Below, piece after piece: positions 1,634-11,115 of a stretch of 11,115 bases of DNA (its first letter is position 1; the number at the start of each line of letters is the position of its first letter). The notes under the pieces are model-generated. The model made no database searches. It saw nothing but the letters and a program-made list of their open reading frames with translations, and was not told where the DNA came from. A program made the position numbers and the translations under genes. Where the stretch lies: contig JAHDWA010000150.1 of the NCBI GenBank assembly GCA_023382535.1, positions 1-11,115 of the forward strand, written 5' to 3'. Source of the DNA: Anaerolineae bacterium (GTDB taxonomy: Bacteria; Chloroflexota; Anaerolineae; 4572-78; J111).

Positions 1634-4600
1634 ATGAAGTTAGTTCAGCGACCCCTTCGTTCGTTAGCTAAGGTCACGGCTTTGGCGGGATTAGGTCTCG
1701 GCATGGTCTGTGGCCTTTTGTTGTTATTGGGCGGGTTAGCCACACCGGCAACAGCAGCGCCGCTAAACACCCCCCTTAGTTGTACCATTTCAAGCCCGAC
1801 CACCCTTACCTTGGCTGGTAGTCCCTACACGGTTAATTGCCCGGTGGATATACAGGCGCCTCTGACCATTCAGCCAGGAGTGGTTGTTTCTTTCACCAGT
1901 GTTGGCCAATTGATCGTTCAACCATCCGGCCAGTTGCTAGCCAGCGGCACACCCACTCAACCCATCACCTTTACCTCCAGTCCAGGGATTTGCGCCTGGC
2001 TCGGCATTGAACTACAAAGCGATAACAATGTTATTGACCATGCCTATTTTGAATACGCCAAGCACGCTATCAAAATTGAGGTCGGTTCCGATTTCAACAC
2101 AATTACCTTCAACTCCTTTCAAAATAATGGCGGCTGTGCCTCAAACCCTCTCAGCGGGGCCATAGTCGGTTCAACGGATAACAGCACCGTCAGCGATAAT
2201 ATTTTTAGTACAAACAACACGGCCATCTACTTGAGCAAGTCTTCTAATAATACAATCGCTCGCAATCTGATCTCGACGACAACTCAGGTGGGCCTGTCCT
2301 TCTTCCCTTCGGCCGGTACTCGCTCCAGTAATAACACGGTTGTCAGCAATACTGTGCGTAATGCCGGCACATTTGGCATCTACATGACAGTGGGCGACAA
2401 CAATTCAATCCTCAATAACAAAGTATTTAGTAACACCGCTGGTGGTATTGGACTTGAAGATCAAAACGCTACCACCGGCCGCCGTGTCACCGTTCGCAGC
2501 AATGATGTTTACAGCAACAGCGGTTTCGGCTTGTATATCACCGACACCGCTGGCCTTGATTTAGGCGAAAACCTGGTTCTGAATAATGGTCAGGGCATGT
2601 TGTGGGATTTGAATAATAATCCGGGCAGCGCCGTAATCACCCGTAACGTTATTTGTCGCAATCCGGTCTACCTTTTCCGCAACAACGATGCCGCCAGCGT
2701 CGCCGCCGCCCCTAACTGGTGGGGCAAAAATAATCCGGGCATCGGTACGGACATCCAGGGGCCGGTGGTGATTACCCCTTATATGGTCCTTTCGGCGGCG
2801 GCAGGAAGCTCATCCCTCCCGGCTAATGGCGTTTCGACCACTACACTGACGGTTTCCTTACAAGGGGGGAGCGAAACGGTGCCGCTTCGCGCCCGCGCCA
2901 TCACCTTGACCACCAGCCTGGGTACTATCTCACCCTCGGTCGTTACCCTCAATAACAGCGGCATCGCCACGGCAACTTACACCTCCGCACTCACACCCGG
3001 GTCAGTGGGAATAATTGCTACCGACATCTGCACCTCAACCTTGCTGACAACTACCCTGGCCCTTACCCCTGTCTACAACCTGGCAATTACTAAAACTACG
3101 GCTCTAACCTGGGCTGTACCGGGGCAGGTCGTCACTTATACCATCCAGTACAGCAATACCAGTAATTATCCAGCTTCCAGCGTGGTCATCAGCGATGCGC
3201 TGCCCGCTTTTAGCACCTATGTAGGTGATACCAGTATTTTCACCCGGAGCGGTTCAGGTACCGGACCTGTTTCGTGGACCGTAGGGACGTTACCACCCCA
3301 TACGGGTGGCAGCTTTGTCCTGACTACTTCGATAACCAGTACGGCCACCTGTAACAATCCCATCACTAATACCGTTTTTATCAGCGGGGCTGGCGGTGAA
3401 CCAAACCTCAGCGACAATTCCAGTTCGGCCTCGCGGCAGATCTTGTGCGGGGTAAATCTGGTAGTGGTCAAAAATGACGGCGTAGGTATCAACGATCCGC
3501 GCCTCAACGCGGCCGCGGGTGAATACATCACCTATACTATCAGCGTCAACAATATGGGCAACCAACTAGCCTCAAACGTCATCCTCAGCGACACCCTGCC
3601 GGCCAATACCGTTTTTAATGCCGCGCGCAGCACTTCCGGCTGGACTCTGGCCGGTGGCGTTTATACTATTAACCTGGGCAATCTGGCCGGTAACGGCGGC
3701 GGCACAGTGGTTTACTTTGTGGCGCAGGTTGACCCTAACCTGTCGTGTGCCATCACGCAGACGGTCAACACGGCCACAGCCAGCAGCAACGGCCCGGAGA
3801 TTTATCCTCCCGATAACACATCTAACGAACAGACGCCCGTCGTTTGCGCTCCCACCACACTGCAACTGTCAAAAGAGGATTTCGTTCCCTGCGCGATTCC
3901 CGGCCAACTCATTGACTATGCGATCACTGTAAATAACACCGGAACGGTCCCAGCTAACAACCTGATCCTGACCGAATTTTTGCCTACTAACACCTCTTTC
4001 CAAGGCCCGGCAGGTACGTGGACACCGGCTGGAGGCAATACCTATACTCACAACATCGGGACACTGAATAGCGGCCAGATTAATACCACCGGTTTCTCAG
4101 TCCAGGTTGCCACTTCTACCACCGCCTCGGCTATCACCAATGTGGTGACGTTGCAGCCAACCGGCTTAAACTTTACGCTAACCACCCCTATCTCGACCAG
4201 TGCCCCCGACCTGTACGTCATCAAAAATGACAACATCGAGCTGCTCAGTACCGCTACCGCTGCAACCATCGCTCGCCTGGAACAGAAACTTGGCCCGCTG
4301 CCCTGGCTGGAGGCGGTCAAAGGAGAGGGTCTCAGTTCCCAGGCCATCGCGGCCAGACCGGGCGATGTCATTTCGTACACCATAGCTTTTGGCAACGCCG
4401 GGACCAGCCCGGCCGCCAATGTGGTCATCAGCGAAACCTTGCCGGCCAACACAACCTTCCTCGGCCCAGCCTACTGGACAGCCGTCAACGCCAACACTTA
4501 TGTCTATACTATTTCGACCTTGCTGCCCGGTAATGGTGGCAATTTGGACTTCAGGGTACGGGTGGCTAACCCCTTCCCGACAGGCGCCCCTGGAGTCACT

Positions 4601-5854
4601 AACACGGTTCAGATAGCAGGCACAGGGCTATCAGAGTGTGATACCAGCAATAATATCAGCCGTGAGTTTACCCGGATTGATGGAACGACAGTGGGTTCAA
4701 TGACTGTCTATCTACCCCTTATCTTTAAAACCAGCCAAACAAGCCCTCCTCCTACTTCTACCCCCACCCCAACCCCTACCCCGACACCGTTAGCCCACGT
4801 CTCCGATGTCAAAGCCGACCCGGATACCAACCAGGTCTTTGTGGCCAGCCCGCGCCACGATTGGGTTTATGTCATCAACGGCAGCAACGATACCCTGGCC
4901 CGCAATGTACCGGTAGGTCATGGCCCAACCGGCCTGACTGTGCTTGACGGCAGCGCTCCGGCCAACAATAAAGTTTTTGTAGCGCACCAGTACGGAGCCA
5001 ACCAGTGGCATCCCGGGTTTATGGCATTTGGGGTCAACGATACAGCGGCGCATGTTACCGCCGACGGCGGTTACGCTGGTGCTGCCCCCATCAAAACAGC
5101 AGCCAACGCCGTTAATAACAACCGGGTGTACGTGTCGAACTATTTTGACAAACTGGCCGTTTTCAATGGAAATTCCGGACCGCCGGAGGCGCGGGTCGGG
5201 TGGGTTGTCCAAAAAGCGTTTCAGGGCGCCTACGGGATTGATACCAGCACTGCCACCAACCGGGTTTATCTGGCCACTCGTGATACCGGTGAACTGGTCG
5301 TCTTCGACGGCAATGGCGACCGTTTGCTCCAGAGCAACTACATCCCGACGCACGTGAAACCGCCGCAGGCGTGCAGCCTGTGGAGCGTGGCTGTCAATGA
5401 AACAACAGGCCACGTGTTTGTGCCCTGCCCCCAACTCAGCAAGGTTTTTGTGCTCCAGGAGAGCCAGGTTTCTGTTTTGGACCTGGAAGCTCTAGGGGCA
5501 CTGGAAGAACGAGACGGCTTTCTGGCCCTGGTGGTCTCCCCACAGGCCGCTCCCTGGTTGGCAGACATCAGTATCCCTAATGGTGCAAACCTGGGGCAAG
5601 AAGGCATCGCGGTAGACACCTCAACCGGGCGAGTTTTTATTACCAACGGGCAGAACAACAGCCTGGTTATTTTGCAGGATGGAACCACGCCAGCCTACAT
5701 GACGACCGTGGCCGCCGGGACAAAGCCACAGGGAGTGGATGTTAACCCGGTCACTCAGAAGGTTTATGTGGGCAATACCGGCAGCAACTCCGTGACAGTG
5801 TTGAATGCGGCCTCGCCTTTTGGCGTGATCAAAACGATCCCTTTAACGCCGTGA
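1634..5854 (+). CDS. Exported multidomain surface protein: beta-helix, Ig-like, four DUF11 repeats, seven-bladed beta-propeller
   Basis: This 1406-residue protein is very probably secreted or displayed at the cell surface. Residues 1-41 form a signal peptide: basic start, long Leu/Gly-rich core, and an Ala-Thr-Ala cleavage site. Residues about 55-375 are Asn-rich parallel beta-helix (NosD/PbH1-like) coils, closed by an NWWGKNNPG segment. Residues about 383-478 resemble a bacterial Ig-like (Big_1/invasin) domain. Four DUF11-type repeats follow, starting near residues 481, 606, 739 and 857, each with a PGQ/AGE..YTI..NN and SD.LP pattern. VYLPLIFK is at 1025-1032 and a Pro/Thr linker at 1038-1052. 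Residues 1055-1406 hold seven YVTN-like blades with VYV or VFV strands. The predicted mature chain has 14 cysteines, consistent with disulfides outside the cell. No LPXTG signal or C-terminal membrane anchor is seen. Adhesion or polysaccharide binding is possible, but no catalytic motif is evident. Confidence 0.9.
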   Translation: MKLVQRPLRSLAKVTALAGLGLGMVCGLLLLLGGLATPATAAPLNTPLSCTISSPTTLTLAGSPYTVNCPVDIQAPLTIQPGVVVSFTSVGQLIVQPSGQLLASGTPTQPITFTSSPGICAWLGIELQSDNNVIDHAYFEYAKHAIKIEVGSDFNTITFNSFQNNGGCASNPLSGAIVGSTDNSTVSDNIFSTNNTAIYLSKSSNNTIARNLISTTTQVGLSFFPSAGTRSSNNTVVSNTVRNAGTFGIYMTVGDNNSILNNKVFSNTAGGIGLEDQNATTGRRVTVRSNDVYSNSGFGLYITDTAGLDLGENLVLNNGQGMLWDLNNNPGSAVITRNVICRNPVYLFRNNDAASVAAAPNWWGKNNPGIGTDIQGPVVITPYMVLSAAAGSSSLPANGVSTTTLTVSLQGGSETVPLRARAITLTTSLGTISPSVVTLNNSGIATATYTSALTPGSVGIIATDICTSTLLTTTLALTPVYNLAITKTTALTWAVPGQVVTYTIQYSNTSNYPASSVVISDALPAFSTYVGDTSIFTRSGSGTGPVSWTVGTLPPHTGGSFVLTTSITSTATCNNPITNTVFISGAGGEPNLSDNSSSASRQILCGVNLVVVKNDGVGINDPRLNAAAGEYITYTISVNNMGNQLASNVILSDTLPANTVFNAARSTSGWTLAGGVYTINLGNLAGNGGGTVVYFVAQVDPNLSCAITQTVNTATASSNGPEIYPPDNTSNEQTPVVCAPTTLQLSKEDFVPCAIPGQLIDYAITVNNTGTVPANNLILTEFLPTNTSFQGPAGTWTPAGGNTYTHNIGTLNSGQINTTGFSVQVATSTTASAITNVVTLQPTGLNFTLTTPISTSAPDLYVIKNDNIELLSTATAATIARLEQKLGPLPWLEAVKGEGLSSQAIAARPGDVISYTIAFGNAGTSPAANVVISETLPANTTFLGPAYWTAVNANTYVYTISTLLPGNGGNLDFRVRVANPFPTGAPGVTNTVQIAGTGLSECDTSNNISREFTRIDGTTVGSMTVYLPLIFKTSQTSPPPTSTPTPTPTPTPLAHVSDVKADPDTNQVFVASPRHDWVYVINGSNDTLARNVPVGHGPTGLTVLDGSAPANNKVFVAHQYGANQWHPGFMAFGVNDTAAHVTADGGYAGAAPIKTAANAVNNNRVYVSNYFDKLAVFNGNSGPPEARVGWVVQKAFQGAYGIDTSTATNRVYLATRDTGELVVFDGNGDRLLQSNYIPTHVKPPQACSLWSVAVNETTGHVFVPCPQLSKVFVLQESQVSVLDLEALGALEERDGFLALVVSPQAAPWLADISIPNGANLGQEGIAVDTSTGRVFITNGQNNSLVILQDGTTPAYMTTVAAGTKPQGVDVNPVTQKVYVGNTGSNSVTVLNAASPFGVIKTIPLTP
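4745..4789 (+). repeat. Pro/Thr-rich low-complexity linker
   Basis: C-rich DNA encodes Pro-Pro-Pro-Thr-Ser followed by five Thr-Pro pairs (residues 1038-1052). It separates the DUF11 part and the VYLPLIFK motif from the beta-propeller. Such linkers in exported proteins are extended spacers and are often glycosylated. Confidence 0.85.
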
Positions 5855-8841: not shown

Positions 8842-9630
8842 CTACTTGGGAATAATCGTAACTTTGCGGTTATCATCGCTGCCAACGCTTTTGGTAGTAA
8901 CCAACGGATGATCGCGGAGGGTAATATGGATGATCCGCCGTTCATGCGCCGGCATCGCCTCGAGTACGATTTTTTTACGGGTGGCAACGACCCGCTCCGC
9001 CATTTTCTCAGCCATCTGGCGCAGCGATTGACGGCGGCGCACCCGGTAAGACTCAACATCAACCACAATCGGCTGCCAGGCGCTCAGCTCTTTGCTGACC
9101 ATCAGGCGGACCATATCTTGCAAAGCCTGGAGGGTTTCGCTGCGCCGGCCAATCAAAATACCCAGGTCACCGCCGGTAATATCCAACACCAGAGGGGGTG
9201 CTTCACCCGGCTCCACCAAATCAGTACCCAGGCGGTAGGATACCTTGGCTTTGATACCCATCAACTTCAGCAACTGCGTTAAAAACTGGGCAGCAATCTC
9301 TCCCATTTCGGTCGGCTGGGTTGGCTCCACCTCACTTGGAGCGGGCAGAGCCGGTTCGACCGGTTTGGAGGTTGCTCTTGTTTCAACAGCAGGAATACCT
9401 TCCGCCTCAGCAATTTCAGTGGTTGGAGCAGCCTCGGCCGGGGTGGTCCTTTTCCGGGTCAGGCGAACTTGGGCCTCTTCAGAGCCGATGCCAAAAACGC
9501 CGCGTTTTCCTTCTTTGACGATTTCAACATCAACCTGTTCGCGGGTGAGGCCGAGTTGAGCCAGTCCTTGCTCGATGGCCTCGTCAATTGTTTTAGCGCT
9601 TACGTCGAGACTTTCGTTTTGATTTGACAT
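8842..9630 (-). CDS. jag: Jag/KhpB (SpoIIIJ-associated) RNA-binding protein
   Basis: Jag/KhpB proteins bind RNA, act with KhpA, and influence cell division and envelope growth in Gram-positive bacteria; the gene is classically next to yidC. With the ATG at 9630 the protein has 262 residues. The Jag-N domain is at about 5-57, with the family's EGKRGVFGIGSEEA stretch. A Pro/Ala/Glu-rich linker spans about 60-107. A KH domain follows at about 108-183 with an ILIGRRSETLQALQ core, and an R3H domain at about 190-262 with the R-x3-H pair Arg231/His235 inside ERRIIH. The last Gly of the KH GxxG loop is Ser164. A TTG at 9666 could add 12 residues but has no family support. The start overlaps the end of yidC by 38 bases, so translation is probably coupled. 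Confidence 0.93.
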   Translation of the reverse strand: MSNQNESLDVSAKTIDEAIEQGLAQLGLTREQVDVEIVKEGKRGVFGIGSEEAQVRLTRKRTTPAEAAPTTEIAEAEGIPAVETRATSKPVEPALPAPSEVEPTQPTEMGEIAAQFLTQLLKLMGIKAKVSYRLGTDLVEPGEAPPLVLDITGGDLGILIGRRSETLQALQDMVRLMVSKELSAWQPIVVDVESYRVRRRQSLRQMAEKMAERVVATRKKIVLEAMPAHERRIIHITLRDHPLVTTKSVGSDDNRKVTIIPK

Positions 9631-10948
9631 GGGTATCTTTACTATTTTCTTCGGGATTAGCCGCAACCGGGCTGCTGGCCGTCACCGGGGCGCTGAGACG
9701 TGTTCCAGTCGGGGCTGTCGCCGGTTTCATATTTGTTTGGGTAAAATATTGTTGAATCAGGGCCAGCAGATTACTGGTAAACCAGTACAGGGTCAGGCCT
9801 GAGGGGACAATCAGCGAAAAATAGCCAAACATAATCGGCATAATTTTCATCATCGAGTTCATGGACGCCTGCTGCGGGTCAGGGTTGGGCGGGGTCATCA
9901 TCTGCTGCATATAATACTGCGACACCACCAGCAGTACCGGCAAGACCAGGTAAGCCAGAGCCGGTCCCCAGCCAATCGAAGGAGGTAAAGGCCACAACCA
10001 ATTTAGGCCGCCGCCACGGTCCGCCACTGGCCCAGCCAGGCTGGGAATCCATAGAAAGCCCTCATACAATAACCCTTCGTGCGAGAGTTGGGTTAGGGCC
10101 TGGTAAAGCGCAAACCAGATAGGCATCTGGACCAGGGTGGGCAGACAGCCGCCCAACGGATTAACCCCGGCCTCCTTGTACAGGGCCATCTGCTCCTGAG
10201 CCAGTTTTTCCCGGTCATTTTTATACTTCTCTTGCAGCTCTTTCATCCGCGGCTGCAACTCTTGCATGGCCTTAGACGATTTGATTTGCTGCATATTCAA
10301 AGGGAAAGTAGCCACACGGACCAGGATGGTGAAGAGAATAATAGAGAAGCCGAAGGCATAAGGGAGGCCCCAGCCCTTTAGCACATTGTCCAGATAGACG
10401 AGAGACAGGGCAATGAAATTGACAAAAGATCCCCAGATACCCAGCTCTTGGGGCGTAGTTTTTACAGTGGCGCTGGCTTCCAGGGTAGTTTCGCCAAACT
10501 TTAATTGGGCCACATTGTTCAGCGTTTCGCCGGGTTCAGCCGTCGAAGGGGGAATGGCATGATAAATGATGGTCGCCGCCTGATTTTGCGGCAAGCTGCC
10601 CGACCAGGTAACTGTATTATTATGATTATCAAACGTGCCAAGTGTAACCGAAATGGAATGAGTTTGCAGAGCCAGGGACAGCCCTTTCGGCATCACGTCG
10701 GTGAGAGTAAAATCAATATCCCGGTTACTGCCGTTTTTAACAGTAACGGTATAGGTAACTACTTGACCCAGTGGGACGGTCTCAGAACTGGCCTTCTTCT
10801 CCAGGGTCACACCATTGGCCTGGGCTATAGGGTTAAGGGTAGTGGGTGACGGGTTGGGGAAAGCCGCGGTGGCGGGCTTAAATAACGCTAAAAACAGAAT
10901 AAGACCAACGACAATGAGGGGTAAAATCAACAACCTTAAAGATTTCAC
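9593..10948 (-). CDS. yidC: Membrane protein insertase YidC with an extra exported DUF11-type domain
   Basis: YidC/Oxa1 proteins insert and fold inner-membrane proteins with or without SecYEG. The 451-residue protein has an N-terminal hydrophobic segment (6-23), then a DUF11-type Ig-like domain at about 46-165 (VPLGQVVTYTVTVKN, then LTDVMPKGL). The Oxa1 core starts near 171: TM1 with conserved Arg211 in LVRVATFPL, the charged cytoplasmic hairpin (217-268), GVNPLGGCLPTLVQMP at 261-276, and TM3-TM5 to about 402. The tail is Pro/Ala-rich and ends in a very basic KSKRKSRRKR, expected to bind ribosomes. The start is a GTG; AGGAGG lies 17 bases upstream, which is long, but no other in-frame start is closer. 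yidD is 53 bases upstream and jag overlaps the 3' end. The DUF11 domain replaces the unrelated P1 domain of proteobacterial YidC. Confidence 0.95.
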   Translation of the reverse strand: MKSLRLLILPLIVVGLILFLALFKPATAAFPNPSPTTLNPIAQANGVTLEKKASSETVPLGQVVTYTVTVKNGSNRDIDFTLTDVMPKGLSLALQTHSISVTLGTFDNHNNTVTWSGSLPQNQAATIIYHAIPPSTAEPGETLNNVAQLKFGETTLEASATVKTTPQELGIWGSFVNFIALSLVYLDNVLKGWGLPYAFGFSIILFTILVRVATFPLNMQQIKSSKAMQELQPRMKELQEKYKNDREKLAQEQMALYKEAGVNPLGGCLPTLVQMPIWFALYQALTQLSHEGLLYEGFLWIPSLAGPVADRGGGLNWLWPLPPSIGWGPALAYLVLPVLLVVSQYYMQQMMTPPNPDPQQASMNSMMKIMPIMFGYFSLIVPSGLTLYWFTSNLLALIQQYFTQTNMKPATAPTGTRLSAPVTASSPVAANPEENSKDTHVKSKRKSRRKR

Positions 10949-11001: not shown

Positions 11002-11115
11002 TCACGGCACGGGATCATAGCCACCAGGATGAAAGGGATGGCAGCGGCCAATACGTTTTACGGCCAACCAGCCCCCTTTAATCAGACCATACTTTTCTAT
11101 CGCTTGATAACTGTA
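11002..11115 (-). CDS. yidD: Membrane protein insertion efficiency factor YidD (C-terminal part)
   Basis: The last 37 residues are visible; the start lies beyond the window. The end [18 protein letters not shown] is the hallmark YidD C-terminus, with the conserved RC-HP and HPGG-DPVP signature. The segment before it ([19 protein letters not shown]) also fits the family. YidD is a small amphipathic membrane-associated protein that assists YidC-dependent insertion. It is typically encoded between rnpA and yidC, and that order holds on the yidC side here. Confidence 0.95.

Follow-up and report, generated by a model that had tools for sequence, protein, structure and literature searches.

Which outer domain does the YidC insertase of an Anaerolineae bacterium carry, how was it acquired and what might it do there? 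The YidC core is near-universal, while the outer domain varies by lineage and its purpose is unsettled. The question is raised by an 11,115-nucleotide stretch of DNA (contig JAHDWA010000150.1; herein the window), in which a minus-strand open reading frame with a GTG start encodes a YidC of 451 amino acids. A first-pass annotation made from the letters of the window had described it as a YidC with a DUF11-type immunoglobulin (Ig)-like domain in place of the P1 domain, DUF11 having been renamed CLIPPER in a 2025 survey (PMC12617251). This is a lineage-specific YidC whose DUF11/CLIPPER outer domain is probably stapled by an isopeptide bond, and we favor, with reasonable confidence, the view that an ordinary yidC of one Anaerolineae family has gained such a stapled outer head once.

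Both parts of the protein are recognized by profile. The YidC/Oxa1 core matches Pfam 60KD_IMP (E 2.9e-60; 203.4 bits against a cut-off of 35) and NCBIfam TIGR03592 (217 against 84.3), and it has the fold of solved YidC. Ahead of the core, the domain exceeds the cut-offs of DUF11 (PF01345; residues 48–149, 40.5 bits against 24.6, E 3.9e-10), DUF7927 (PF25549; residues 53–154, 36.9 bits against 31) and the NCBIfam DUF11-type repeat TIGR01451 (32.7 bits against 24); when excised it also exceeds that of TIGR04226, an "isopeptide-forming domain" (32.3 bits against 30), under which the whole protein falls (27.9 bits). The principal strands in the structure model span residues 47–165, so that the domain is taken as 10454–10819, two residues longer than first claimed, and the domain-only model has a CnaA-like Ig fold with EbpB, BcpA and RrgB D2 among its best structural matches. 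The motifs quoted by the first-pass annotation (VPLGQVVTYTVTV, DVMPKGL and GETLNNVAQL) are all present, and the domain does follow the N-terminal hydrophobic segment and precede the Oxa1 core. The assignment extends to homologues: among 56 picked from the best 120 of 4481 matching proteins (set A1), 55 are hits of DUF11 and 55 of DUF7927 at E 0.001, and 117 of those best 120, which come from several sources, have DUF11 or DUF7927 in their precomputed Pfam column (the exceptions being the partial protein P0038 together with P0108 and P0109).

The P1 fold is a beta-supersandwich, and the outer domain could in principle be a diverged P1 that merely resembles DUF11. The full-length YidC profile aligns residues 121–286 of the protein with its positions 297–459, and E. 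coli YidC aligns over roughly that stretch too, pulling the end of the domain into the alignment. Nevertheless, full-length YidC models score far under their cut-offs on this protein (in one case 174 of 447 bits), its 11 Pfam hits at E 1 or below include no P1 family, the modeled fold is CnaA-like and the nearest relatives are without any outer domain. P1 entries such as 3BS6 are outside the structural matches listed, which alone do not exclude P1. A profile search, a check that the annotation itself had named, places the domain in the DUF11 family and leaves the P1 profile unmatched; by profile, the outer domain is of DUF11/CLIPPER type and no P1 domain, and we disfavor a P1 origin as extremely improbable.

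An unusual architecture on one contig might also be a chimera, created by assembly or by local fusion in one strain, and the window's own whole genome is outside the set of genomes compared. This explanation is refuted, with virtually no probability left to it, by the variety of sources among the 117 proteins above and by the recurrence of the same architecture in every one of the 12 searched family genomes. Systematic tests covered the class, order, family and a phylum sample. In the class search via locus L002 (whose class is taken as Anaerolineae), 389 of 396 genomes have a match; among the matches listed, which extend down to near E 1e-46 and from which a strongly different Ig domain would escape, the alignment covers the domain in 12 genomes, starting no later than residue 31, and in all other rows it starts at residue 150 or later. 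Within the order, the DUF11-bearing YidC is found in 12 of 25 searched genomes, and these are all 12 searched genomes of a single family. In an even phylum sample (400 genomes, 387 with a match), only G002 aligns over the whole domain among the matches listed; as read from the alignments, those of G616 and G638, with starts at positions 89 and 132, enter the domain across stop codons, and that of G024 begins at 144. Searching with the domain region retrieves 37 proteins, counting that of the window, and every one of them has 60KD_IMP in its Pfam column; searching with a divergent member retrieves four, namely the query, two other YidC proteins and an archaeal protein, annotated as hypothetical, that has numerous Ig-type families. 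The profile scores and the conservation in 12/12 searched genomes of one family exclude chance, and the DUF11-bearing YidC is confirmed as a real observation and not an artefact.

The phylogeny of the cores, also proposed by the annotation along with the architecture search, agrees on one family and a single clade. In a midpoint-rooted tree of 55 YidC cores, one clade (100/99) holds all 13 rows with the domain, among them that of the window; it is joined (100/99) to six YidC proteins from the order that consist of the core only, with seven further core-only rows of the order next (96/96). The six sister proteins start directly ahead of the EH1 helix, without a leader. A by-eye check for hidden N-terminal domains in 20 regions of other genomes, many picked for long open frames (with G024 and the long frames of G137, G546 and G686 from the phylum sample left out), turned up lipobox leaders, unrelated frames upstream or cores with nothing ahead of them. 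The neighborhood is kept: yidD-yidC-jag is present in 9/9 family loci (L001–L009), while the six sister loci have jag in every case and yidD in three (sought with a 37-amino-acid query in short stretches), and 60KD_IMP gives one match per genome in eight genomes, five of them from the family. Because distribution, tree, leaderless sisters and kept neighborhood coincide, the leader and DUF11 domain are, on this sequence evidence, a single gain at a pre-existing locus, and we regard the architecture and its single gain as close to certain. The words "in place of P1" do not stand, since there is no sign of replacement and the closest relatives consist of a leaderless core alone, so that leader and DUF11 were added. 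The type of YidC N-terminus also varies within the class: lipobox-like leaders occur on other Anaerolineae YidC proteins and others are leaderless (L010–L013, L120–L122, L124, L125, L127–L132, L138), and 14 lipobox rows are placed elsewhere in the core tree.

As to the source of the domain, the annotation's suggestion of shuffling from a stock of surface domains may well be right. DUF11 is matched in all 30 genomes tested (12–103 matches per genome in the 12 family genomes and 1–72 in the 18 others, with possibly low counts in four genomes, as 105 candidates were scored), and the closest non-YidC relative of the domain in the order, within a 708-amino-acid frame, is 39% identical over residues 44–160. 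The domain was probably drawn from the lineage's stock of exported DUF11 proteins, shuffling being the simplest route. In tests that ignore kinship and leave aside five genomes outside the order, the median DUF11 density of the 12 DUF11-YidC genomes (9.9 per megabase, Mb) is similar to that of the six sister genomes (7.9; p 0.89) and above that of seven deeper genomes (2.6 per Mb; p 0.0003), which suggests that the stock is older than the YidC fusion. A bolder possibility is that the stapled head recognizes DUF11 repeats emerging from Sec and serves as a folding template or holdase for the lineage's DUF11 surface proteins; if true, a core translocation component would have been re-tooled for one cargo class by carrying the cargo's own domain. 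The DUF11-YidC genomes are not richer in DUF11 than their sisters, however, so that density lends this no support, and we consider it very unlikely. The window itself encodes a 1406-amino-acid protein (1634–5854, plus strand) with a signal-like N-terminus, a parallel beta-helix (NosD-like), four DUF11 stretches found by Pfam (the number that the annotation had counted), a P/T-rich linker and C-terminal YncE-like beta-propeller repeats.

What the annotation missed is a Lys/Asp/Asn isopeptide triad that, as aligned, is kept in the domain. According to PMC12617251, structure 9IFR has a Lys715–Asn806 bond with Asp748 as putative catalytic residue, DUF7927 is a predicted isopeptide family and the bond is missing from some DUF11 domains. 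A combined profile of the YidC domains and the window's four surface DUF11 repeats aligns 9IFR (E 0.00015), and K51, D84 and N145 of YidC coincide there with the Lys, Asp and Asn of that chain; the Lys-to-Asn distance in the chain is 91, matching the publication, and the Lys–Asp spacing is 34 against 33 by the paper's numbers (the Asp is one off its printed number). A profile of the YidC domains alone, compared with solved structures, listed neither 9IFR nor any pilin, its best match being an unrelated half-domain (E 0.018).

Across 141 rows (120 proteins and 21 locus copies, duplicates included), the triad reads K/D/N in 134, I/N/N in four and N/D/N in two, with a gap in one partial protein. 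Thinning to below 80% identity, with the partial row and loci L001–L009 dropped, took 131 rows to 68, of which 66 have K/D/N and two I/N/N; L100 and one of three I/N/N rows were lost in this step. In P0122 the triad is Q/D/N, Lys having changed to Gln with Asp kept. Asp loss is seen among the 141 rows only together with Lys loss, and Lys is sometimes lost with Asp retained; the joint loss of K51 and D84 has a Fisher p of 2e-6 on the unreduced rows, made too small by related rows, and on the tree the Lys-loss label needs four changes, at least three by the starred branches (P0122 is outside that count). These counts and this pattern of loss indicate that the bond is likely ancestral and usual, yet dispensable, and we think it quite probable that Lys51 and Asn145 are joined in most members. 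Two DUF11 domains of the window's surface protein have Glu at the expected catalytic Asp position. Cys is absent from the YidC outer domain in 68/68 thinned rows, hence there is no disulfide.

In profile, fold and triad, the domain is like DUF11/CLIPPER of fibrillar adhesins (PF01345, 9IFR); however, the CLIPPER copies described in PMC12617251 belong to long surface proteins, often in tandem, whereas here a single copy without a disulfide sits on a membrane insertase. The CnaA-like EbpB, BcpA and RrgB (bonded in its D2 domain through K193/D241/N318; PMC12617251) are pilus subunits, host proteins unrelated to YidC. E. coli YidC (6AL2, 3WVF) shares the N-terminal segment and the core family and, at the corresponding place in its topology, has a large outer domain ahead of EH1, but that domain is P1, which binds SecF (PMC7618853), and not an Ig-like DUF11, and the nearest relatives inspected of the DUF11-YidC have no outer domain. 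Also unlike the present protein, B. halodurans YidC2 (3WO7), a Gram-positive YidC, is without an outer domain. Gram-positive-type YidC carries a lipoprotein leader.

As distribution and tree show, a leader peptide and a single DUF11/CLIPPER Ig domain were built once into an ordinary yidC in the ancestor of this Anaerolineae family. Of the "first membrane segment" of the annotation, the hydrophobic segment holds; for all its own variability, it ends in [A/V/G]-x-A at residues 26–28 in 63 of the 68 thinned rows (the remaining five have a proline/threonine-rich stretch instead), which suggests that it may be a signal peptide cleaved by signal peptidase I. The domain would be exported and positioned outside the membrane immediately ahead of EH1, where a self-formed, Asp84-aided Lys51–Asn145 isopeptide, as the 9IFR alignment and conservation point to, would staple the first main strand to the penultimate one. 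The product would be a rigid outer head that resists protease and heat and takes no part in insertion itself. In the weakest step of this scheme, the head would assume the role ascribed to P1 in E. coli, docking the insertase to Sec partners or emerging chains via membrane-side loops; we propose such a docking or stabilizing role only tentatively. The best candidate docking site would be the conserved E-F loop (residues 133–141; P133 91%, P134 97%, T136 85%), which strand order would put on the membrane side and which does not occur in the four DUF11 repeats of 1634–5854. SecD/SecF-type genes have strong matches in 10/12 family genomes (G003 and G112 have only weak matches in long frames), so that a P1-like SecDF contact is possible. 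SecD and SecF are apparently fused in one frame of about 815–842 amino acids in 9/12 DUF11-YidC genomes and 3/6 sister genomes, while in 7/7 deeper genomes of the order the best match is in a frame of 317–338 amino acids, as would fit a separate SecF, and one sister genome has it in a frame of 339. Fusion of SecD with SecF may thus be earlier than the YidC domain gain.

A serious rival, which we nonetheless judge somewhat improbable, is that the outer domain is a recruited structural spacer or leader-associated passenger without specific binding, kept since topology depends on leader and spacing. Several observations favor it over a functional stapled head: the mean entropy of the domain is far above that of the core (1.45 vs. 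0.54 bits) and that of the preceding linker is higher still (1.94), sister YidC proteins manage without an outer domain, the bond residues have been lost several times, and the review PMC7618853 reports that E. coli YidC with a large P1 deletion works and goes on inserting Sec-dependent proteins. The same review also describes P1 as necessary, by way of SecD and SecF, for Sec-dependent pathways. Conversely, the domain is under purifying selection with an entropy near that of EH1 (1.56 bits; N-terminal segment 2.21, tail 2.25), has never been lost in the 12 searched family genomes, and has a conserved I-P-P-S-T at 132–136 that is missing from the DUF11 repeats of 1634–5854. Pairwise dN/dS is 0.08–0.35 for the domain (six pairs) and 0.01–0.07 for the core (five pairs, the sixth being saturated), values that are rough as several dS exceed 1.

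Table 1. Positions of yidC, its parts and its immediate neighbors in the window.
Feature	Position	Strand	Basis
yidC, 451 aa: signal/TM segment, DUF11 (CLIPPER-type) Ig domain, EH1, Oxa1/YidC core, basic tail	9593..10948	-	ORF call, Pfam, NCBIfam, model
N-terminal hydrophobic segment, residues 1–28, ending A26-T27-A28 (signal-peptidase-I-like A-x-A; putative cleavage)	10865..10948	-	Helix 2–22 in model; row conservation
DUF11/CLIPPER-type Ig-like domain, residues 44–165, predicted extracytoplasmic	10454..10819	-	Profiles, model
Lys51, predicted first bond residue of intramolecular isopeptide	10796..10798	-	9IFR Lys alignment; conserved
Asp84, predicted catalytic residue	10697..10699	-	9IFR alignment; conservation
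Asn145, predicted second bond residue	10514..10516	-	9IFR alignment; Asn in all 141 rows
E-F loop, residues 133–141, PPSTAEPGE (consensus PPSTSxPGQ)	10526..10552	-	Conservation; membrane-side orientation putative
EH1-type helix into core, residues 171–193	10370..10438	-	Model helix; EH1 named by position
60KD_IMP (YidC/Oxa1) core, residues 199–404	9737..10354	-	Pfam
yidD 3' part, cut by window end	11002..11115	-	PF01809, 59.2 bits
jag/khpB (Jag_N, KH, R3H), frame overlaps yidC end	8842..9666	-	Pfam; same neighbor in relatives

At the locus, yidD (PF01809) lies upstream of yidC, and jag, a pfkB-type kinase, parA and parB lie downstream. The frame of jag shares up to 74 bases (9593–9666, minus strand) with the 3' end of yidC. 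In L001 and L002 the matches overlap as well, and translational coupling is possible. The C-terminal tail of YidC (9593–9736, minus strand) is variable except at its end, where a basic block, KSRRKR, hardly changes (0.50 bits across residues 444–451); such a basic tail might fit ribosome contact. At 390–1478 on the plus strand, two 2TM stretches (PF13239) are followed by a long charged region.

The main text of PMC12617251 treats isopeptide bonds in adhesin- and pilin-like surface proteins and makes no mention of YidC, insertase, translocase, transmembrane or membrane protein, and a literature search over accessible text found no report of a YidC with a DUF11 outer domain or isopeptide; PMC5898192, considered as a DUF11-YidC paper, has in the passages searched DUF116 as its one DUF11-like word. 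A different fold in the same slot, gained once, present family-wide and absent from the sister group, amounts to a natural swap experiment on YidC outer domains and, if the bond forms, would place a pilin-type isopeptide inside the housekeeping machinery of protein insertion.
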